Made by a program: the position numbers and the translations under genes
Notes under the pieces: model-generated
Told to the model about the DNA's origin: nothing
Database searches by the model: none
The model's input: the letters and a program-made list of their open reading frames with translations, nothing else
Source of the DNA: Flavobacterium flevense
GTDB lineage: Bacteria; Bacteroidota; Bacteroidia; Flavobacteriales; Flavobacteriaceae
Length of the DNA: 64,000 nt
Assembly (NCBI RefSeq): GCF_900142775.1
Contig: NZ_FRCC01000015.1
Coordinates: 1-64,000, forward strand
Direction of reading: 5' to 3'
Shown here: positions 17,349-37,537 of the stretch, piece after piece
Position numbering within the stretch: the stretch's first letter is position 1
Layout: the number at the start of each line of letters is the position of its first letter

Positions 17349-17482
17349 ACTTTTTTATCAAATTCGTAATTAAACCATTTTCTAAAATTTGATTCTAATT
17401 CAAACTGGATTTTAATCACTTGTTAATTACAAAAAACACGGCAAAATCCATAAAACCAACACGCAAACAGAACAACCTGACA

Positions 17483-18679
17483 ATGAATAAATTAATAATT
17501 TTACTAACTTTTATAGCAATATCATCAAGTTCATTTGCTCAAGAAGTAGATTACTCCAAACCAGTCAAAGGACAATGGACAAATCAGAAAGCAAAAGATT
17601 GGTATGCCAAACAGCCTTGGTTAGTGGGAGCCAATTATTTACCATCAACTGCTATTAATCAGATCGAAATGTGGCAAGCCTCTACGTGGGATCCTAAAAC
17701 AATAGACAAAGAATTTGTATGGGCTCAGAATATGGGAATGAATACCATGCGTGTATTTTTACACGATCTTGTATGGGCATCAGATAAAAAAGGACTCTAC
17801 AAACGTATAGATGAATTTTTAAATATTGCAAAAAAACACGGTATCCGTCCCTTTTTTGTATTTTTTGACGATTGTCACTTCCCGAATCCCACACTTGGAG
17901 TACAACCTTTGCCTGTAATAGGCTACCACAACTCCGGCTGGGTAAATTCACCCGCCAGAGAAATTGCAGTTAGATTTGCAAATGATGAAGCTTCTCCAGA
18001 AGAAGTAGCTCTACTAAAAGGATATATTCAAGAAACTATTTCTCATTTCAAAAATGACAAACGGATTTTAATGTGGGAATTATACAACGAACCTGGAAGA
18101 GGAAACAATTTAGATGGTTCCGATAAAAAAACAAGTCTTAATGATCACTCAAAAAAATTAGTTTATGCATCATGGCAATGGGCTCGTGAAATTAACCCTT
18201 CACAACCCATAACAGCAACTTCTGCAGGTAGTGCTGGTAAAATCAACATACAAATCAACCGCATAAATGCAGATATTATATCAATTCATAGTTATGAAAA
18301 TGCAGAAAACATCGAAAAATTAATCCTTGATTACCAAACTGAAGACAGGCCAATTATTATGACTGAATGGTTAGCGCGCACTCAAGGAAGTACAGTTGAA
18401 GACATTTTACCCGTATTAAAAAAACACAATGTTGGAGCTGTAAATTGGGGCTTTGTATCTGGAAAAAGCGGTACCGTGTGGCCATGGTCTAGCCGCAGAG
18501 AAGACGGTAAAAACATTAGTGTAAATGAAAAAAGAGCACAAGGAAAAGTCGTAAAACCCGGCGAAGCCTTTCCTGAACCAGAAGTGTGGTTTCACGACTT
18601 ATATAGAACAGATGGCACACCTTTTAACCAAAATGAAATTGAATTGTTTAAAAAATTAACCTCTAAAAAAAATCAATAA
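17483..18679 (+). CDS. Clan GH-A TIM-barrel glycoside hydrolase (GH5-like)
   Basis: The start is placed at ATG 17483, which opens a clear signal peptide (to FAQ, residue 20). A TTG at 17420 would add an unlikely 21-residue leader. The 398-residue product has the features of clan GH-A retaining hydrolases: LYNEPGR after strand 4 with acid/base E203, and MTEWLART after strand 7 with nucleophile E295, 92 residues apart. The family is closest in feel to GH5 or a GH5-like unnamed group often annotated as xylanase or cellulase; that name should not be taken as specificity. It is single-domain with no carbohydrate-binding module. It lies between sulfatases, with only 5 bases to the next one, so a beta-linked sulfated polysaccharide is the probable target. 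Confidence 0.75.
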   Translation: MNKLIILLTFIAISSSSFAQEVDYSKPVKGQWTNQKAKDWYAKQPWLVGANYLPSTAINQIEMWQASTWDPKTIDKEFVWAQNMGMNTMRVFLHDLVWASDKKGLYKRIDEFLNIAKKHGIRPFFVFFDDCHFPNPTLGVQPLPVIGYHNSGWVNSPAREIAVRFANDEASPEEVALLKGYIQETISHFKNDKRILMWELYNEPGRGNNLDGSDKKTSLNDHSKKLVYASWQWAREINPSQPITATSAGSAGKINIQINRINADIISIHSYENAENIEKLILDYQTEDRPIIMTEWLARTQGSTVEDILPVLKKHNVGAVNWGFVSGKSGTVWPWSSRREDGKNISVNEKRAQGKVVKPGEAFPEPEVWFHDLYRTDGTPFNQNEIELFKKLTSKKNQ

Positions 18680-18684
18680 AAAAG

Positions 18685-20052
18685 ATGAGAAATCAATTAG
18701 TGAAGTTGGTGTGGCTTACTTTTTGTCATTTATTCTATTTGACAACAGTACTTGCTCAAGAAAAACCAAATATCGTTTTTTACATTGCTGATGATGCCGG
18801 TTATTTGGATAATTCTTTTTTTGGAACTGGAGAAGTTCAAACACCTACTATGGAAAAATTAGCAAAAGAAGGGATGCGTTTTAATAATGCTTTTATTGCC
18901 TCTCCTGCTTGTGCTTGCAGTAGAGCTGCTTTACTTACAGGACTTATGCCAGCTAGAAATGGTGCCGAAGTAAACCATTCTTACCCTCACAAAGATATAA
19001 AAGTTATGACGCAATATTTACAAGATCAAGGATACGAAGTAATTGGTTTTGGAAAAGTAGCCCATGACAAAATGAATACTACTGCTGGATTTAATTTTTA
19101 CAGTGAGCCAAAAGTAGATTTAGCAAAACAAGTAAAAGAATATTTTGCAACTCACGAGGTTAAAAAACCTATTTGTTTACTAGTAGGCGATCGAAGACCA
19201 CATGTACCCTGGATAAAAGTACCCACTTATGATCCCGATAAAGTGACTATTCCCCCCTATTTTATTGACACAAAAGAAACCCGAATAGAAAGAGCAAGAT
19301 ACTATACCGATGTTACGGGTATGGACAAAGAAATGGGCGAAATTTTAGACATTGCCGAACAGCAATTTAAAGATAACCTTATCTTTGCTTTTAGTAGTGA
19401 TCATGGAGCACAATGGCCTTTTGGGAAATGGAATTTGTATGATTTTGGTATTCGTACACCATTACTTATGATGTGGAAAGGAAAAATAGAGGCTGGTTCA
19501 CAAACCAATGCGATGGTAAGTTGGGTTGATATTTTCCCAACATTTATTGATATTGCTAAAGGTAGAGTACCTAAAGACTTGGATGGAAAACCATTTACGG
19601 ATGTACTCATGGGTAAAAAAAGTAATTTCAGGGAAAAAATTTATACCACTCATACGGGTGATGGTAAAATGAATGTTTACCCAATTCGAAGTGTTCGAAC
19701 TTCTCAATACCATTATATTTTAAATTTACACACAGACTATTTACATACCAATCATTCTGATTTATTGAAAAAAGACGGAGCTGGATCTTATTGGACTTCT
19801 TGGTATCAAAAAGCAGCTGGAGACAAAAAAGCTATGGAAGTGGTCATGAAATACCATCAAAGACCAACACAAGAATTATACGACGTGATAAAGGATCCTT
19901 TGGAACAAAACAATTTGGCTCTAAATCCGAAATACAAAAAGGTTTTAGATAAAATGAAAAAAGATTTACATCAATGGATGAAATCACAAGGAGACACAGA
20001 AAAAATATACAATACACCAATTATAAAAACGGAAGACTTTCCCATAAAATGA
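18685..20052 (+). CDS. S1-family sulfatase with atypical C-A-C-S-R motif
   Basis: This 455-residue exported sulfatase (signal to about VLAQ, residue 25) has metal aspartates in IADDAGYLD (D36, D37). Where the maturation signature C-x-P/A-S/T-R is expected it reads C-A-C-S-R (C76 to R80), so the third position is cysteine. The downstream segments GFGKVAHDK and SSDHG also differ from the GKWH and SDNG of the other sulfatases and resemble the sulfoglucosamine sulfohydrolase/iduronate sulfatase side of the family; I would guess subfamily S1_8. The rest of the fold appears complete. It begins 5 bases after the GH5-like gene and ends 7 bases before the next gene, so it is tightly coupled in the operon. 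Whether C76 is converted to formylglycine is the main question. Confidence 0.85.
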   Translation: MRNQLVKLVWLTFCHLFYLTTVLAQEKPNIVFYIADDAGYLDNSFFGTGEVQTPTMEKLAKEGMRFNNAFIASPACACSRAALLTGLMPARNGAEVNHSYPHKDIKVMTQYLQDQGYEVIGFGKVAHDKMNTTAGFNFYSEPKVDLAKQVKEYFATHEVKKPICLLVGDRRPHVPWIKVPTYDPDKVTIPPYFIDTKETRIERARYYTDVTGMDKEMGEILDIAEQQFKDNLIFAFSSDHGAQWPFGKWNLYDFGIRTPLLMMWKGKIEAGSQTNAMVSWVDIFPTFIDIAKGRVPKDLDGKPFTDVLMGKKSNFREKIYTTHTGDGKMNVYPIRSVRTSQYHYILNLHTDYLHTNHSDLLKKDGAGSYWTSWYQKAAGDKKAMEVVMKYHQRPTQELYDVIKDPLEQNNLALNPKYKKVLDKMKKDLHQWMKSQGDTEKIYNTPIIKTEDFPIK

Positions 20053-20059
20053 AAATAAA

Positions 20060-21205
20060 ATGAAAAAAATCACACTATTGCTATTCTCTATACTGTCGTT
20101 ACAAACAGCTTTCGCACAACAAATAGGTGCTAATTTTAATGAGAATATTGAAAATATAGATCCATCTCTCCTCTCCAAAGCTGAGGTAAAATGGGTTCGT
20201 GGCTTTGTAAATATCCCTCGTTATTTTTTGACCGTAGATAAAAATGGGAAAGTAACTGGAGTAAATAACAAAGCCATCAAAAATTTTGACATTAGCCCTT
20301 TAACAAACCTTAAAGGATATAAAATAATTTTAAGCCTAAAACTTGATTTCAAATTTAAAAAAATTGGCGCTCCAGAGGAAAATTCAATGGAAGAAACTTA
20401 TTTGTTAAATGCCATTAAACTCTTTTTGACGGAGAAAAATTTAGGTAATAAAATTAACATTTTAGTCGTAGGTAACGAACCTATGTGGGAAACCCCAAAT
20501 GGAGATGCTAAAAAATTAGGAGCCATTACTAATAAAATCATTACACTTTCGAATGATTTAAAAATTAGTCAAAATTGGAATTATGAAATATTCACAGGGG
20601 CCTTAAACCGTGTAAGTGAATTGCAAAAAAATGATATTGTAGCTGAAATAATAAAAATAACTAAAGAAAACCCATTAGTAGATGGTATTGATTTACACAT
20701 CCATACTAATGAATTAATAAAAGCAAATGATGATCCTGCTTACATTAGAAATGAGGCTAAAATAACTAAAAAAATAATCTGTACAGAGTTTTCTATAGTG
20801 CGTCTTTTTGAAACCTACAGCAATGAATCCTTAGGATTATGGGGAACACAAAATGGATATCCTTCAGACATGAAACTTTACGAATGGTTAAATCTTGTTC
20901 AGCAAAAAGCAATTGATAAAAACCCAATTAAACCTGAAATTTTAATGGACTATTTTAATAGTCAAAGTTGGTATCCTAAACAGTGGTTTAATGCCTTTCT
21001 AACCTCTTTCAAAAAAAACAATGTCTCCATAGCCACTTATGGATTACAAAACACATTAAAAGACAAACCTAAAATACTCAACGCCAAATCTCCTTTATGG
21101 ATTTTAAACTTTGTATATAACGGTGGGGTTTTAGGTAATGACAATTCAGGTCTAGGGAATAAAAATCCTTTGGTGTATCCAGAGTTTGAGGCTTCCAAAA
21201 AATAA
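20060..21205 (+). CDS. Secreted TIM-barrel-like protein, candidate glycoside hydrolase of unrecognised family
   Basis: This 381-residue protein has a signal peptide ending near FAQ (residue 20). I do not recognise its family. Two segments look like the catalytic strands of clan GH-A enzymes: ILVVGNEPMWE, with candidate acid/base E140, and IICTEFSIV, with candidate nucleophile E243, 103 residues apart. HIHTNE near 213-218 fits the usual strand between them. There is no extra domain. It is the last gene of the operon, 7 bases after the C-A-C-S-R sulfatase and 27 bases before a terminator, so it is co-expressed with the sulfatases and GH5-like enzyme. A hydrolase acting on the same polysaccharide is the reasonable inference. 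Distant relation to GH39 or GH30 is possible. Confidence 0.7.
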   Translation: MKKITLLLFSILSLQTAFAQQIGANFNENIENIDPSLLSKAEVKWVRGFVNIPRYFLTVDKNGKVTGVNNKAIKNFDISPLTNLKGYKIILSLKLDFKFKKIGAPEENSMEETYLLNAIKLFLTEKNLGNKINILVVGNEPMWETPNGDAKKLGAITNKIITLSNDLKISQNWNYEIFTGALNRVSELQKNDIVAEIIKITKENPLVDGIDLHIHTNELIKANDDPAYIRNEAKITKKIICTEFSIVRLFETYSNESLGLWGTQNGYPSDMKLYEWLNLVQQKAIDKNPIKPEILMDYFNSQSWYPKQWFNAFLTSFKKNNVSIATYGLQNTLKDKPKILNAKSPLWILNFVYNGGVLGNDNSGLGNKNPLVYPEFEASKK

Positions 21206-21232
21206 AAGCAATCCAGATTTAATATTTTTTAG

Positions 21233-21266
21233 GCAGTAGTAAGTGTTTCTTTACTACTGCTTTTTT
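21233..21266 (+). terminator. Rho-independent terminator of the rightward sulfatase/GH operon
   Basis: A perfect 10-bp stem (21233-21242 with 21251-21260) and an 8-base loop are followed by six T residues, 27 bases after the stop codon at 21205. It shows that the lipoprotein gene downstream has its own promoter. Confidence 0.88.
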
Positions 21267-21518
21267 ATTTAATATTTAAAATCCTTGAGTAGAATTAGTA
21301 CTAATCTTAAGGAGCAAGGAATTATTTATTTGGTTAAGAAAGAAAAAATCAACAATTATCCTATAATTAAACACAATGTTGATTATCAATTCATTCTTAA
21401 TTAAGGAAATTTATTAAATATAATTGAAGGATAACCACTTTAATTATAACACAAACTATTATCAGAAATACTGTTAATAGATGAACCTAATAATTAACTA
21501 TTAAAATCAACCAAAATT

Positions 21519-23015
21519 ATGTTAAGAAACAACAAACCTAAACTAAAGCTACATTCAAAACTGTTGGCTTTACTATTCATTTTAACAACATTTATCTCTT
21601 GTACAGACACAACCGAGAACACAAAACAATCACTAGAGACCAACAAATCTATTACTCAAGAAAGTGCTATTAATAGCAAAATGGAGCAATTAAACGTATC
21701 AGTAATCAATCAAACTATAGTTACCAATCTTACACAAAGTGGTGGCCCTGATATTAATTATTTAAGAGGAATGGCTCTAGGAGGAAACGGTGGTTTTGTA
21801 GATACTAATACTAACCCAAAAACGGTAATGGATCTAATGTCAACAAATAATTTTAAAGCTATTAATGGAATCCGTAACTTATATAAAGAGCCTAAACTTG
21901 GAAATGGCGAATTTTATAAAGAAGGAACCGTTTATAAAAACAGACAACAAGCAGATTATACCAATATTAGAAACTACGCTAAGAACAAAGGCTTTGTCAT
22001 CATCAATCAAGTTGCTGGCACACCAGATAATACATCAAATCCATTATACCCATTAGATACATCCTATTTTACCTCTGATGGGGATTATGTACCATTACCT
22101 ACAACAGGTGCATCTATGCAAGCCTTTCAAGACAATTATGTACAATGGGCATTAGCTGCTGATCAAGCATTAGGGGCTAACTATCATTCTATTTGGATTG
22201 GGCATCAAGAACCTACGCATACATTAGGAACAAAAGTACCTACTACTGATGCAACTAAAAAAGAAAACATTAATCGTTTTGTTGATTACTGGAAACCTAT
22301 TGCAGCTGGTTTAAAAGCTGGTGGTGCAAAAGTGGGAGGTATTCAACTTCCATCAGATGCCAATGGATTATATCAATATGCTGTTGATCGATTAAAATTA
22401 AAACAAGTAGATGTAGATTACTTAACTTTTCAGTTTTACAGATGGGGAGAGCCAACTGCTATAGCAAGTGCCATTTCGGCATTAAATAGCTATAATCAAA
22501 CCTATTCAGGAACCAAAATCATAATTGACCGTGGTCATTGGCACAAAGAATGTTGTGATGGGATTATTTCAGAAGCAGTAACTACAAGTAAAGGAATGAT
22601 TGATTATTTGAAAGGAGAAAAGCTATTGATGGATGATGCTAATTTAATTTATGCCGCTATGTATGACAATACTCAAACCAATGCTAATAACTTACAATGG
22701 AAAATACATTCTTGGCTTAACAATACTTCAAACAAAAGAAGACCTTTAACAGGGCTTCCAGCTGGAATTAATGGTTTTGCCTTAGGAGGAACTAGTGCTT
22801 TTTATGCAGTTATATGGAGTAAATCTGCCAATACAAATAACATAACATTAAGAGTTGATGGCTCAACCTTTTCGTCATCTGCAAATCTTGTTGTGAAAAA
22901 AGCATCCGATACTAATTTTACAACAGTAACAAGTACTTGGAATAGCACAGCAAAAACTATCGGCCCTATAACGATGCTTACAAATGAAATTTATTTAATT
23001 TCATTAAAACCATAA
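21519..23015 (+). CDS. Surface lipoprotein with TIM-barrel-like core, unrecognised family
   Basis: This 498-residue lipoprotein has an N-terminal hydrophobic segment ending FISC, lipidation at C28, and an acidic, Thr-rich linker after it. I do not recognise the family. The core looks like a TIM barrel: WIGHQEPTH (E231) sits where clan GH-A enzymes have NEP, but with Gln in place of Asn. The later strand IIIDRGHWH offers D337 rather than the usual glutamate nucleophile; a vicinal Cys pair (C345, C346) follows. From about residue 410 the sequence looks like an all-beta C-terminal domain. It could be a glycoside hydrolase with altered catalysis or a glycan-binding protein built on a dead enzyme. 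It is transcribed separately, between two terminators, just left of the insertion sequence. Confidence 0.7.
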   Translation: MLRNNKPKLKLHSKLLALLFILTTFISCTDTTENTKQSLETNKSITQESAINSKMEQLNVSVINQTIVTNLTQSGGPDINYLRGMALGGNGGFVDTNTNPKTVMDLMSTNNFKAINGIRNLYKEPKLGNGEFYKEGTVYKNRQQADYTNIRNYAKNKGFVIINQVAGTPDNTSNPLYPLDTSYFTSDGDYVPLPTTGASMQAFQDNYVQWALAADQALGANYHSIWIGHQEPTHTLGTKVPTTDATKKENINRFVDYWKPIAAGLKAGGAKVGGIQLPSDANGLYQYAVDRLKLKQVDVDYLTFQFYRWGEPTAIASAISALNSYNQTYSGTKIIIDRGHWHKECCDGIISEAVTTSKGMIDYLKGEKLLMDDANLIYAAMYDNTQTNANNLQWKIHSWLNNTSNKRRPLTGLPAGINGFALGGTSAFYAVIWSKSANTNNITLRVDGSTFSSSANLVVKKASDTNFTTVTSTWNSTAKTIGPITMLTNEIYLISLKP

Positions 23016-23375
23016 TAATCATAAATTATATGGAGAAAAGGTTATTTTTCTCTAATATAGTTATTAATAGATTTCTAATATGACCGATTTTGAAATTCAA
23101 TTTCGGTCATTTTTCATTTTAAAACGATATTCAATATTTTTGAAAAAAGGCTCCGATTAAACACTTTTGGGGACAGTGTCATTTTTAAAACAAATTAATA
23201 TATTAAGTAATGAATACTCTTAAATGTCGTGTTTTAAAATTACACAAAAACGATTCAACTTAATGAATTTCATCTTTTTTATCGAAGTTTTTACACCTTT
23301 GACTTTTAAAATTTCGACTTATTTATAATCAAAATTTTCTCTGAACTTTTTGAAATGCTTTTATAAATAAAAAAA
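23016..23375. other. Intergenic region before the insertion sequence
   Basis: After the terminator at 23081 there are about 260 bases with no coding frame I can support. A GC-richer patch near 23150-23180 (GGCTCC... GGGGACAGTGTC) stands out against the AT-rich background and may be a relic of another insertion, but it is too short to identify. Confidence 0.4.
23081..23114 (+). terminator. Rho-independent terminator of the lipoprotein gene
   Basis: A 7-bp stem TGACCGA/TCGGTCA (23081-23087 with 23103-23109) is followed by a T-rich tract. It lies 66 bases after the stop codon of the lipoprotein gene. Confidence 0.75.
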
Positions 23376-23407
23376 TGAAGCCGTCTCAAAACTGAGGCGG
23401 TTTTTTT
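23376..23407 (+). terminator. Left inverted repeat of the IS, doubling as an inward-facing terminator
   Basis: Within the left end, arms 23381-23388 and 23393-23400 form an 8-bp stem (one G-U pair) with an AAAC loop followed by seven T residues. Transcription entering the element from the left would be stopped here, before the transposase start at 23473. Confidence 0.75.
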
Positions 23408-23472
23408 ATGCTTACATTTGTTTTTGTATAGGTTATTTCGTATTTTTAAGTATTGATTTACAGATATTAAAT

Positions 23473-25011
23473 ATGAAATTCAAGCATTATAATCAACAAC
23501 AAACGGTGCTTTTACCTTATTCGTTTGACGATTTGATTCCCGAGCAACATCCTGTTCGAGTAGTTGACTACGTAGTGGAGTCGATTAACATCCAACCACT
23601 TTTAAAAGCTTACAGCAAAGAAGGTAATCCAGGCTATCATCCAAAGATGTTGCTTAAAGTGATGTTGTATGCCTATATGACCAATGTTTATTCCTCTCGC
23701 AAAATAGAATTGGCTCTTCGTGAGAATATCAACTTTATGTGGTTAACCTCAATGACCATTGTCGATCACAATACCATTAACCGTTTTAGGAGTAATAAAC
23801 TAAAAGACAGTTTTAAAGAAATCTTCAAACAAGTAGTGTTGATGTTGGCATCAGAAGGGTTAATTACGCTCAAACAAATCTATACTGATGGCACGAAAAT
23901 AGAAGCCCAAGCGGGTCGCTATACTTTTGTTTGGGGCAAAAGTATTAAAACCAACAAAGCTAAAATGCTTACCCAGTTAGAAGATTTATGGAATTATGCC
24001 CAAAGTATTGATAATGATGACAACCCTGATCCAGAGCCAACCCAGTTCAAGGAAATCAATAAAGAAGTAATCGAGCAAACAGTAGCCAAAATAGACGCTA
24101 AACTCTCTGGAAACGAAAAAGCCAGCTCCAAATCAAAAGCCAAATTACGCTACATCAAAAATAATTTTGTAGCCAATTTAGAAAAATACGAACAACAAGA
24201 AGCTATTTTAGCAGAACGCAACAGCTACAGTAAAACCGATACAGAAGCCACATTTATGCGTATGAAAGAAGACCATATGCGAAACGGACAACTCAAACCG
24301 GCTTATAACACCCAAATATCAACCGAGAATCAAATCATCGTTCATTATACCATTCATCAAAACCCAACTGATACCAAAACCCTGAAACCTCATTTAGAAA
24401 ATTTTGAAAAAACCTTTGGGAAAGAAACACTTCAGCAATTGAAAGAAATAACAGCCGATGCAGGTTATGGCAGTGAAGAAAACTACGATTATCTGCAAGA
24501 AAAAGAGCTTACCGCTTACGTAAAATACAATACTTTTGACAAAGAGCAAGACAAAAACTATCAAAAAAAGAACAAACCATTTAGCAAAGAAAATCTCTAT
24601 TATAATCAAGAAGAAGATTATTATGTCTGTCCAATGGGGCAAAAAATGCACAAAACCCATCAAAGCAAGCGTACCACCGAAGCAGGGCACACACAATCAT
24701 TGAGTCATTATCAAGCAAAGAACTGTGAGAGTTGCCCACTGCGAGGGCAATGTTTTAAAGCCAAAGGAAACAGAAGCATTGAGCGAAACCACAACCTTGA
24801 AAGACACAAACAAAGAACAAGAGAGTTACTACTAAGTGAAACAGGGATCCAAAAAAGAAAACAACGCACCGCCGATGTAGAACCAGTGTTTGCTCAACTC
24901 AAGCATAACAATGGATTTAGACGATTTTCTCTAAAAGGACTTGAAAAAGTAGAATTAGAGTTCGGATTAATGGCTTTAGGACATAATTTAAGAAAGAAAA
25001 TTGCCGCTTAA
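23473..25011 (+). CDS. IS1182-family DDE transposase
   Basis: This 512-residue transposase is full length. The N-terminal part (about 1-125) is the DUF772-type domain with HPVRVVDYV and YSSRKIELALREN. The catalytic triad is readable as D139 (IYTDGTKIEAQAG), D329 (ITADAGYG) and E470 (DVEPVFAQLKHNNGFRRF). A cysteine cluster (CPMGQK, then NCESCPLRGQC) near 395-430 is usual for this group. A lysine/glutamate-rich insert (about 150-270) separates the first two acidic residues. Base composition is less AT-rich than the neighbouring sulfatase genes, consistent with transfer. No frameshift or internal stop is present, so it may be active. Confidence 0.94.
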   Translation: MKFKHYNQQQTVLLPYSFDDLIPEQHPVRVVDYVVESINIQPLLKAYSKEGNPGYHPKMLLKVMLYAYMTNVYSSRKIELALRENINFMWLTSMTIVDHNTINRFRSNKLKDSFKEIFKQVVLMLASEGLITLKQIYTDGTKIEAQAGRYTFVWGKSIKTNKAKMLTQLEDLWNYAQSIDNDDNPDPEPTQFKEINKEVIEQTVAKIDAKLSGNEKASSKSKAKLRYIKNNFVANLEKYEQQEAILAERNSYSKTDTEATFMRMKEDHMRNGQLKPAYNTQISTENQIIVHYTIHQNPTDTKTLKPHLENFEKTFGKETLQQLKEITADAGYGSEENYDYLQEKELTAYVKYNTFDKEQDKNYQKKNKPFSKENLYYNQEEDYYVCPMGQKMHKTHQSKRTTEAGHTQSLSHYQAKNCESCPLRGQCFKAKGNRSIERNHNLERHKQRTRELLLSETGIQKRKQRTADVEPVFAQLKHNNGFRRFSLKGLEKVELEFGLMALGHNLRKKIAA

Positions 25012-33558: not shown

Positions 33559-36165
33559 TTAATCTGTTGTTATTGATGTATTGGACTCTTTACTAAACAA
33601 ACTCTTACCATTGTTATTGATATAGGCTTTAATAGCAAATTTTGATTGTTTTGCCAATTCCGTATAAGGCACAAAAACCTGAAAAGTTCCTGAGCCCGCA
33701 GACATGTTTTTTCCTTTTACCAATTGCTCTTCCACTGTTAGATAAGATATATTTTCAATTTTAACACCATAAGAATACTCGCCATCCAACAGGATATTTT
33801 TAAAAGCGACTTTAAACAGGTAGCCTTCTTTTTGTTTTTCAACATTTGTAATTTCTATTGAATATTTAGCATCTAAATTTAATAAAGTTGCAGTATTGGG
33901 ATAAAAATTACTTTCACCAGCAGTAGTTTCTGCTTTTACTGTATAAAAATACGTTTTATGTTTTTCAGGTGTTTCATCTTTATAAAAAGGTGTTTTTATC
34001 CCAGATGCTATTTTTTTATACTCATGAAGCACTTCTCCTCTATAAACGTTATATGTGGTTTCTGGAATTATAGAATCCTGTTCGATCCACTTGACTGAAA
34101 CACTTCCATCCAAATTTCGAATAGCTGAGACATTTCTGGGACTTAATGGTACTTTTCTTGAAAGCATTAATGTTTCAGGTTTTGAAAACTCTCCTAAACC
34201 TAGACCATTATATGCAGCTACTGAAAATTGATAAGGTACATCAAACATCAAGTCTTCTACTCTAAATCCATAAACATTATTAGCATCAACTACCTTTACT
34301 TTATTGGTTTGTGTATTAATGTATTTTAACTTGTAACCATCGGCACTTGAAACACTTTTCCAAAAAATGGTAGCAGTATTATCTCTTCTGGATGTTTTGA
34401 AAATTTCAGGAACTTCAGGAATACTATTTTTAAAAAAAACCATATTTGAAAACTCACTCACACCTTTGCTATTTTCGGCTAACATCTTAAAATAGTAGTT
34501 TTTTTCATGTTGCAACTTTTCTATTAAAATATTTGTTTTAGTAATATCTGTAATCTGAATTTCATTAGATAAATTGTTCGGACTATTACCATAAAAAACC
34601 TTATAACTCTTTATGTTCTCAATTCTTCCCCAGGTTAATTTTATTCCAGAATCAAACACTTCTGCTTTATAAATAGTAGGCTGTAATGGCTTTGTAACTA
34701 TTCTAGATTTCCATTTTGCAACAGTCAAACTATATGGAGGAATATTAATTTTGCCCGATTTAAAAAGAGCTTCTTTTATATCAGTATTCTGAATTTCTAA
34801 ATTTGCTGCCGCAATATATTTTATTTGAACATTCTGATTTAAGAACTCATCATTCATTGCTATTTTAAAATCTTTAGATTTCCCGCTTCGGTTTGCAAAA
34901 ACCAAATAATCATAGCCATTTATACCGCGATAAGCTTGAGCATAATACCCCGTTTCCATAGTTGTCGTTAAACTTGGAACTTTCAAATCATTCGCAGCTA
35001 CATGAATATCAAAAACAAAATTTGAATTATTAGTAACCTCATGGAAAATTTCATAGGCTTTTCCTTCTAGTTGTCTATTAATTCCTGTAGCTATTCTTTC
35101 TGTTTGAAGTTTTTTACCTTCTTTAAAAGCTTTTTCAATTAGACTGTTAATGTTTTCCTTTGGAGAATACTTGCTACTTATCTCATGAGCACCCACATAC
35201 CAAGTGTTCTTATGCTCTAATTGCCTCATCACGTACTCTATGTTGTAAATACTTGAATAAATACCATTCAAAGACTTATTCCAAACTCCAAATTCAGTTA
35301 TAACCATCGGTACTCCTTCCCATGTATAATCTTCAATTTCATTCATGGCTTCGTCCGATGTTGCTTCTAAAAGTTTAGTATTTCCTCTTTTATAAGCATC
35401 ATCCAAGGATTCTGTTTTGCCAGTATGTGGCGCATAGGAATGTTTTGAAAACACATTCCAATAAGCACCCTTCTCTTTTTGGTATTGGTTGATTTCTTTC
35501 ATGAAGCCCCAAATACCATCCCAACTATTATTTAATGCAAGATAAGCATCTGGAAATACTTCTTTAATTGCATCTGCATGCGGTTTCATTTTTGCGGCAT
35601 AATCGTATCCGTTATTCCACCAGTAACGTTCCCTGTGAGGCACATAAAAATAAGGTTCGTTACAAAACTGCCATGTTGCAACTTCTATATTGTTATTTTT
35701 ACAAAACCTTGCTAACTCTCTTGTCATTTGGGGTGTTTCAGTAAAACCATTAATGGTAACTATTAATTTACCATTAATTTCTCCTAAAAGCTGATACAAG
35801 TCCAATATACGGTGTGGTCCTTTAATCTTGGTAAATCTATAGCCTTTTAAATATTCTTTTGAATGATCAAACATCATCGCATAATCAATATCATACAGTC
35901 CTGTAGCACTACTAAAAGCGTCTCCCATCGTTCCAGAAAAATATCGCAACCAACCAGGCTTTAGCTCGTGTACTGCTTGCCTAAAATCTGGATGCATATA
36001 ACTCCAAATTCTGTCAGCTATACGTACATTAAAACCACTGGATCCCACTTTTATTGGATGACCTTTTTTTGTATTTATTGAGATAATTGCCTCTTCATTC
36101 TGCGCAAATACATGAAAACAAAACAGGGTAAAAAATAAAACAAAACTGTTTCTTAAAAAATTCAT
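33559..36165 (-). CDS. Secreted clan GH-A glycoside hydrolase with fibronectin type III repeats
   Basis: This 868-residue protein has a signal peptide ending near VFAQ (residue 22). The N-terminal catalytic domain (about 25-370) is a TIM barrel with FCNEPYFY, acid/base E170, and MVITEFGVW, nucleophile E291, 121 residues apart. A beta-rich region (about 375-500) is likely its companion sandwich. Three fibronectin type III-like domains follow at about 505-590, 592-690 and 692-785 (each with a W/Y-x-V-x-Y core and an ending like N-x-x-G-x-S/G-E-F-S), then a C-terminal domain of about 80 residues. The family is uncertain: GH39-, GH51- or GH86-like relatives are possible. The multi-domain layout suggests an endo-acting enzyme on an extended polymer. 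No type IX secretion tail is visible. It lies 37 bases after the GH30-like gene in the same operon. Confidence 0.75.
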   Translation of the reverse strand: MNFLRNSFVLFFTLFCFHVFAQNEEAIISINTKKGHPIKVGSSGFNVRIADRIWSYMHPDFRQAVHELKPGWLRYFSGTMGDAFSSATGLYDIDYAMMFDHSKEYLKGYRFTKIKGPHRILDLYQLLGEINGKLIVTINGFTETPQMTRELARFCKNNNIEVATWQFCNEPYFYVPHRERYWWNNGYDYAAKMKPHADAIKEVFPDAYLALNNSWDGIWGFMKEINQYQKEKGAYWNVFSKHSYAPHTGKTESLDDAYKRGNTKLLEATSDEAMNEIEDYTWEGVPMVITEFGVWNKSLNGIYSSIYNIEYVMRQLEHKNTWYVGAHEISSKYSPKENINSLIEKAFKEGKKLQTERIATGINRQLEGKAYEIFHEVTNNSNFVFDIHVAANDLKVPSLTTTMETGYYAQAYRGINGYDYLVFANRSGKSKDFKIAMNDEFLNQNVQIKYIAAANLEIQNTDIKEALFKSGKINIPPYSLTVAKWKSRIVTKPLQPTIYKAEVFDSGIKLTWGRIENIKSYKVFYGNSPNNLSNEIQITDITKTNILIEKLQHEKNYYFKMLAENSKGVSEFSNMVFFKNSIPEVPEIFKTSRRDNTATIFWKSVSSADGYKLKYINTQTNKVKVVDANNVYGFRVEDLMFDVPYQFSVAAYNGLGLGEFSKPETLMLSRKVPLSPRNVSAIRNLDGSVSVKWIEQDSIIPETTYNVYRGEVLHEYKKIASGIKTPFYKDETPEKHKTYFYTVKAETTAGESNFYPNTATLLNLDAKYSIEITNVEKQKEGYLFKVAFKNILLDGEYSYGVKIENISYLTVEEQLVKGKNMSAGSGTFQVFVPYTELAKQSKFAIKAYINNNGKSLFSKESNTSITTD

Positions 36166-36202: not shown

Positions 36203-37537
36203 TTATTTAATAGTAAATGTAAATCTTGTTATAGATCTTTTAGGTAAGGTTAATGAAAATATATTTTTATCAGTACCTTCTGAATTCACAGAAGTTTGTT
36301 GCCCTGCTATAGGAGTAGTAGCAGTCCATTGCAATGCATCAACTTTCCCTTCAATACTCGTAGATTCTAGTTTAAAAGTATAATCATTACGAACTGTTTC
36401 ATTCATATTAACGGCATATACAGTTATCGTTTTGTTTTCAATAAAAGCCCTAGTTTGTAACTTACCTAAAGTAGTGATACTTTCCCCATCAATATCAGTT
36501 ACTTTTATAGGTCTTGCACCTAATAAAGGAACAGAAACAGCACGCATTAATTTTCCTCTTAAGTTTTCTCCAATCGAATATGACCACCACATAAAACCAG
36601 ACATACCTATATCTATCTGATCCCATAATGCAAGAATTCCTTCTTCAGCTTCACTAAAATCATCTACTTCAGCTTTGGCATCCCAATGGGGTTCGGTGGA
36701 CCAAAAAGGTCTATTACCTATAAAAGCTAAATCAACAAGCAATTTGTCTTTCGGACGAAATTGCGGGTAATAATGAGTCCCATATATGTCCATTGTATCT
36801 CCCCAACCATTATCAATTAAATTTTTAACCCAATTATTTTTATTTGGTCCATAATCCTCATAACCAACTAAAACAGGCATAGCAAAACCCTTCTCAATGG
36901 CTAAAATTCGTAATGCTGCTATAGTTTGAGCATATTTTTGAGGTGTAATATTGCCTTCGTTATAAACAAACTCATTATCAATACCTAAATAATCTATTTG
37001 AACTCCTTTAGATTTCATAAACTGAATAAAATCGGCTATAAGAATTGCATACTTTGCTGGAATAATACCATTTGCATCTTTTACCCAAGACGGAAAAGAT
37101 GTTTGTCCGTCTAATTTTTTACTGGCAAAAATTTTAAGTTCTTTAGTTCCCCTAGCCTGTTTGGCTAAACTTATTGTTGTTAAGACATCATTATACATAT
37201 CTTCAACAACAACACCTGCACTTGGATGAGCAGGAAGATTATTTTCACCCCTTATAGGAACTCTTAAGCCATTATTATCATCTATATTAAAAATTTCATT
37301 TGCTTCTGATGCGTTATTTAGATTTTTAGTTGCTTGTTTGATGTCATAAAAAAACACATCAATTAATTTTCCCGGATTATTAAAACTTATAACACTATGA
37401 ACTGTTTTATTAGGAGTAGGAATTGGAGTTGGTTGTCCAACTTCTTCACTCCCGTCTGAGCCATTCCTACTACAATTTGTAAAAAAAACTAAAAACACTA
37501 ATAAACAACTTATCGTTTCAAATGAATTTCTTTTCAT
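36203..37537 (-). CDS. GH30-like clan GH-A lipoprotein
   Basis: This 444-residue lipoprotein has its lipobox at FTNC (C22) followed by an acidic, proline-rich linker (SDGSEE, then PTPIPTP) that would hold the enzyme off the membrane. The catalytic barrel shows DYLGIDNEF, with candidate acid/base E189, and FWSTEPHWD, with candidate nucleophile E282, 93 residues apart. A C-terminal beta-sandwich ending RSITRFTFTIK is like the side domain of GH30 enzymes. The overall organisation fits GH30 or a sister family, but I cannot assign a subfamily. It lies between a sulfatase 44 bases upstream and the FN3-bearing GH-A enzyme 37 bases downstream, so three enzymes are probably co-transcribed. A surface endo- or exo-hydrolase acting on a beta-linked sulfated chain is the inference. 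Confidence 0.72.
   Translation of the reverse strand: MKRNSFETISCLLVFLVFFTNCSRNGSDGSEEVGQPTPIPTPNKTVHSVISFNNPGKLIDVFFYDIKQATKNLNNASEANEIFNIDDNNGLRVPIRGENNLPAHPSAGVVVEDMYNDVLTTISLAKQARGTKELKIFASKKLDGQTSFPSWVKDANGIIPAKYAILIADFIQFMKSKGVQIDYLGIDNEFVYNEGNITPQKYAQTIAALRILAIEKGFAMPVLVGYEDYGPNKNNWVKNLIDNGWGDTMDIYGTHYYPQFRPKDKLLVDLAFIGNRPFWSTEPHWDAKAEVDDFSEAEEGILALWDQIDIGMSGFMWWSYSIGENLRGKLMRAVSVPLLGARPIKVTDIDGESITTLGKLQTRAFIENKTITVYAVNMNETVRNDYTFKLESTSIEGKVDALQWTATTPIAGQQTSVNSEGTDKNIFSLTLPKRSITRFTFTIK

Follow-up and report, generated by a model that had tools for sequence, protein, structure and literature searches.

What could be the role of a rare lipoprotein that, judged by its residues, seems to resemble a sugar-cutting enzyme and to lie amid genes for sulfated algal sugars? 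The protein in question has 498 residues and is encoded on the forward strand at 21519-23015 of the window, by which we mean the whole stretch of 64,000 nucleotides of Flavobacterium flevense DNA analysed here; from its open reading frame and low-confidence models it is probably a divergent clan GH-A-type barrel followed by a C-terminal beta-sandwich. Our tentative answer, to which we give a probability of roughly 0.45, is that it is a pseudo-glycosidase which keeps the acid/base glutamate, has an arginine in place of the nucleophile, and uses its former pocket to bind an anionic sugar.

The gene and its locus

The window holds a large polysaccharide locus with nine sulfatases, two GH43 proteins, three SusC/SusD pairs, a GH36/raffinose-synthase-like protein, a LacZ-type GH2, two hybrid two-component regulators and one weakly matched GH30/GH59-like protein. 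We infer that its substrate is a sulfated polysaccharide, perhaps a galactose-containing one. PDB searches with the neighbouring proteins gave no substrate name, and carrageenan as a candidate found no support in the carrageenan-regulon paper, the main text of which contains neither GH39 nor GH43 nor GH36 (PMC5698469).

Motifs of GH-A enzymes recur elsewhere in the window. GNEP and CTEF are found in a protein of 381 residues (20060-21205, forward strand) that matches no Pfam or NCBIfam family. On the reverse strand, a protein of 868 residues (33559-36165) combines WQFCNEP and VITEFG with fn3 domains, its first part being covered by no Pfam family at E 0.001, and a weakly GH30/GH59-like protein of 444 residues (36203-37537) has a lipoprotein-like start and STEPHW at the supposed nucleophile place.

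That the protein is a lipoprotein, as the sequence-only reading had it, is borne out by an N-terminal signal judged by eye, which covers residues 1-28 (21519-21602, forward strand) and reads LLFILTTFISC up to Cys28; FISC is common to the relative described below. The same reading gave the gene its own transcription unit. A terminator-like stem-loop with a T tail, which lies between the lipoprotein gene and its upstream neighbour (21231-21262, forward strand), makes this plausible at most, since the two terminator-like sites found in 20000-23500 compare with a mean of 1.5 in shuffled sequence, and such sites are thus no commoner than chance. A scan with the exact flavobacterial promoter pattern gave no match near the gene. 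Further downstream, an IS1182 transposase gene (23473-25011, forward strand) lies between the lipoprotein gene and an opposite-strand group of GH43, SusD and SusC genes.

Relatives and predicted fold

Searched as a single sequence and as a two-row profile, the protein reached no Pfam or NCBIfam cut-off and matched no PDB sequence, its sole Pfam row, HTH_Card1, lying far below the cut-off. The GH39 family (PF01229) was not matched by the full protein at E up to 1 or by the barrel at E up to 10, nor did searches of Pfam, NCBIfam and the PDB connect it to a GH30 model or to a solved GH30 sequence. Only chance-level rows came from PHROGs and from the PDB queried with the QEP peptide. No relative came from the plasmids and phages searched, or from the viral contigs searched, where the lone match ran antisense to another reading frame. 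A first scan of genome contigs yielded 12 stretches and no relative; a second, built on two short peptide patterns and therefore able to miss relatives, yielded 76 stretches, one of which was a relative.

Counting matches at each search's own threshold, the genome searches recovered the protein in its own genome (1/1) and in genome G260 of a pair (1/2). The larger draws matched 3 of 397 genomes (its own, G260 and G154), 2 of 395 (its own and G154), 16 of 395 (its own, 14 with the signal only, and G949, where a GH39-like protein matched by its tail), 1 of 395 (its own) and 2 of 397 (G260 and G193). These draws overlap, the second of 397 looking like a repeat of the first, so that the distinct genomes searched are fewer than the summed count of 1,982. 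G154 was dropped since its match spans residues 12-80 only, G193 as an unrelated protein, and the 14 genomes because their matches were limited to the N-terminal signal part. The only true relative to emerge was that of G260, which is also the protein encoded in the related locus L004 of an uncultured Algibacter. So far the family has two known members, in two genomes, and the Pfam, NCBIfam and PDB searches found no characterised family with the same residues.

The relative is about 27-29% identical, with 120 of 443 residues identical from residue 56 onward, and the reading frame is intact in both genomes. Its locus (L004:1-21419) encodes six sulfatases, a GH5, a GH43, a GH39-like protein and a hybrid regulator. 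Within it, the relative's gene seems to belong to an operon: by the listed starts, 47 bp separate it from the GH5-like gene ahead of it and 5 bp from the sulfatase gene that follows. It lies among enzyme genes, with susCD not adjacent within the stretch seen. When 13 proteins of L004 were compared with 23 of the window's 34 listed reading frames, the best pairs were a GH5/GH2-like neighbour (64% identity; in the window, 419 residues, 17420-18679, forward strand; in L004, directly upstream of the relative's gene), a sulfatase (53%), a regulator (47%), a GH43 (44%), two more sulfatases (40% and 37%) and the lipoprotein (26.6%). The lipoprotein hence diverges more between the loci than six shared neighbours do (37-64%). 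Such low identity is not special to it, however, as three further L004 sulfatases have best window matches of 33, 26 and 27%. The GH5, the GH39-like protein and a 239-residue protein of L004 found no match in the window at E up to 0.001.

Both AlphaFold models are of low confidence, with a mean pLDDT of 50.9 for model 1 and 46.2 for model 2, the latter obtained from a trimmed input and no better. The matches listed by Foldseek and VIA-align are mostly of clan GH-A (GH30, GH39, GH44, GH53, GH79 and GH86, some of which we take to be such from the entry titles), with Foldseek TM-scores of at most 0.31 among the 50 matches listed and with some barrels outside GH-A, namely alpha-glucosidase, maltogenic amylase and alpha-galactosidase. 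For model 1, most VIA-align matches superpose at an rmsd of 12-14 Å, the best being an endo-galactanase (Z 11.6, rmsd 4.3 over 193 residues). The best-supported part of the fold, in a model of low confidence, spans residues 356-498 in model 2, which superpose on the GH30 xylanase 5cxp (Z 12.6, rmsd 2.8, 124 residues). The C-terminal beta-sandwich (residues about 405-498; 22731-23012, forward strand) is the most confidently predicted part in model 2 and one of the most confident in model 1; it agrees with a weak match of the two-row profile to the tail of GH39-like proteins. The beta-rich tail noticed at the outset thus reappears in both models, and neither indicates a fold other than a TIM barrel. 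A GH-A-type barrel with altered motifs is favoured by both as well, but the superposition is loose. Judged from these models, the fold is probably a clan GH-A-type barrel with a beta-sandwich, nearest to GH30 and GH39.

These comparisons also single out the closest known systems. The GH39-like proteins of the relative's locus (L004:15951-18080) and of G949 (stretch L007) share with the lipoprotein a beta-sandwich tail with NGxxGF, and their WEVWNEP aligns with its WIGHQEP. They differ in having their own Asn-Glu acid/base pair and a TEYE nucleophile, and the local match is in the tail only (hhalign E 0.0003-0.0005 in one comparison, probability 33-40%). GH30 xylanases such as 5cxp and XynC (3kl3) resemble the modelled fold of residues 356-498, but show no sequence match, and their nucleophile glutamate appears to be replaced in the lipoprotein.

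The acid/base block and the beta7 register

In clan GH-A, an Asn-Glu pair at the end of beta4 forms the acid/base motif. If WIGHQEP is beta4, the glutamate is kept and the asparagine is glutamine in both members. The motif WIGHQEPTH contains Gln230 and Glu231, as verified by numbering; Gln230 would stand at the Asn place and Glu231 at the acid/base place of a block, QEPTHTLG (residues 230-237; 22206-22229, forward strand), that is identical in the relative at seven of eight positions. The glutamine ahead of the acid/base, which the sequence-only reading had picked out, is thus common to both members, as Gln230 and Glu231 recur in the lone relative (QEPxHTLG). In a forced global profile alignment with the GH39-like proteins, Trp226 and Glu231 fall opposite the Trp and Glu of WEVWNEP. 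The block by itself is not exceptional, because it is one of two separate 8-residue windows with seven identities and at least one such window arose in 678 of 5,000 shuffles.

Further residues are identical in both members, namely Pro232, His234, Thr235, Leu236, Gly237, Gln276, Gln305 and Tyr307, and in the later part Arg338, Trp341, Lys343, Glu344, Asp347 and Glu352. Gln305-Phe-Tyr307 (22431-22439, forward strand) ends the modelled beta6, and three MAFFT alignments set its segment DYLTFQFY beside DYFSIHSY of the GH39-like proteins, which places the glutamine at the position of their histidine. Over five strand ends of model 1, in a test that draws on two sequences and a low-confidence model, 14 of 25 residues are identical, where 20,000 random draws give a mean of 6.7 (P about 0.006).

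Where, then, is the nucleophile? The modelled beta7, KIIIDRGHW (residues 333-341; 22515-22541, forward strand), is a strand in both models at a pLDDT of about 45-53. Its Asp337, within IIIDRGHWH, had been put forward as a meaningful beta7 residue. The relative reads KMVAHRTLW, with histidine in place of Asp337 and with Arg338 kept, and Asp337 as a conserved nucleophile is thereby ruled out. Neither KIIIDR nor KMVAHR contains a glutamate. In seven GH-A-like proteins of both loci, picked by eye from pattern hits, with motifs the sole basis in two cases, beta7 reads [K/R/V]-[K/P]-three residues-[T/G/C]-E (supposed nucleophile segments KKIICTEFS, RPIIMTEWL, RPFWSTEPH, VPMVITEFG, KPYLVGEFG, VPLVFTEYE and RPILWCEYA). 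TKIIIDRGH and the relative's VKMVAHRTL fit this pattern with arginine at the Glu place. By eye, PFWSTEPHW of the GH30-like protein at 36203-37537 resembles KIIIDRGHW. Kinship of the two proteins was not borne out by sequence (hhalign probability 1%, best BLAST E 0.78), which leaves the PHW/GHW resemblance alone.

To place the register, a matrix of the seven segments with the Glu column masked was slid along both proteins. In the region 300-380, Arg338 ranked first, second and fourth (tied) with flanks of 3, 2 and 0, and the relative's arginine second, second and outside the top five, with higher scores elsewhere in both proteins; a register centred on Glu352 never entered the top five, under three settings and in either protein. 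Glu352 (22572-22574, forward strand) is the rival nucleophile: it is kept in the relative, and under all three MAFFT settings this residue (in DGIISE) and the relative's glutamate lie opposite the GH39-like nucleophile (VFTE/IFTE), KIIIDR being placed beside another stretch of those proteins. These alignments contain large gaps, and by eye they set the KIIID strand against a helix-like segment, ADRVKWIVE. In model 1 Glu352 is in a helix at a pLDDT of about 31, within a stretch (341-360) that falls to about 26-31 from some 53 around 331-340. We tentatively take Arg338 at the nucleophile place as the better register. If it holds, the family would be marked by glutamine for asparagine, glutamine for the beta6 histidine and arginine for the nucleophile.

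Two other features were set aside. The vicinal pair Cys345-Cys346 (22551-22556, forward strand) is present in the reading frame but is missing from the relative in the pairwise alignment. A lost beta8 tryptophan, named by eye, was dropped, because beta8 could be either of two segments, GMIDYL or ANLIYAAMY, and in neither model is one of these a strand.

Binding protein or enzyme

If an arginine does stand where the cutting residue is expected, the standard two-step retaining mechanism should be impossible, and the protein may hold a sugar or cut it in another way. In the pseudo-glycosidase reading, the lipoprotein would descend from a clan GH-A glycosidase, its fold being nearest to GH30 and GH39, and would serve in a sulfated-polysaccharide locus with Glu231 retained as the former acid/base, Gln230 replacing the usual asparagine and Arg338 at the beta7 nucleophile place. 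The former active site would bind a negatively charged oligosaccharide, sulfated or uronic, and Arg338 would meet the charge of the ligand or pair with Glu231.

By analogy, the divergence of the lipoprotein relative to its shared neighbours may speak for a binder, as low similarity was remarked on for the glycan-binding proteins that beta-glucan loci encode (PMC7157763). The same paper bears on the altered motif: in BuGH158, of a family (GH158) in clan GH-A, the supposed fold of the lipoprotein too, the asparagine before the acid/base is described as needed for activity (PMC7157763), whereas the lipoprotein has glutamine there and appears to lack the second glutamate. GH18-like proteins of gut Bacteroidales (BT1284 and a B. 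faecium protein) are likewise relatives of TIM-barrel glycosidases, in another GH family, and are described as without catalytic activity (PMC11180146). Since BT1284 showed no measurable glycan binding (PMC11180146), this parallel would count against a binder. So may the conservation of the Glu231 block, which is among the most conserved stretches, as a pure binder need not keep Glu231, and the MAFFT pairing of Glu352, given a weak register test and poor models. The relative's gene, amid enzyme genes and not beside susCD in the stretch seen, counts against a binder as well.

A first rival is a working enzyme with a changed mechanism, a reading we hold to be somewhat unlikely, in which Glu231 would act as the acid and the nucleophile or base would be another carboxylate beyond beta7 (Glu344, Asp347 or Glu352) or a group of the substrate, or in which the reaction would be non-hydrolytic, for example that of an eliminase. 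At 29% identity, Glu231 and other pocket residues are kept, as are the three acidic candidates, and the relative's gene keeps the company of enzyme genes. Another marine Bacteroidetes locus is known to encode a non-hydrolytic oligosaccharide dehydratase, described in a paper the main text of which contains neither 'GH39' nor 'barrel' (PMC8511951). No precedent emerged among the papers listed by keyword searches of one open library, in one case 10 of 68, which is no proof of absence: a clan GH-A protein with arginine for the nucleophile was not among them and may exist in print. That the two proteins represent a new clan GH-A-type enzyme family of sulfated-glycan loci, with the nucleophile glutamate changed to arginine, another catalytic route and Glu231 as the acid, we consider rather improbable. 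Slightly less probable still is a conventional GH-A hydrolase of the retaining type from a family not yet described, its register misjudged and its normal nucleophile most readily sought in Glu352; the recurrent MAFFT pairing and the low confidence of the models would allow for it, but the gaps in those alignments, the strand set against a helix, the failure of the Glu352 register in the matrix test and the modelled helix around this residue argue against it. A decaying gene product without function would accord with the low identity between the two members and with the transposase gene next downstream; it is very improbable in view of the frame intact in both genomes and the conservation clustered at modelled strand ends.

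The sequence-only reading, an enzyme with a changed mechanism or a barrel reused for binding, is supported in part, Gln230 and Glu231 being kept and Asp337 not, and either of its options may hold. Should the register prove correct, the active site of a standard glycosidase would have been changed alike in two genomes while its acid/base was kept, and the family would represent a clan GH-A barrel that has either come to bind charged sugars or acquired new chemistry.
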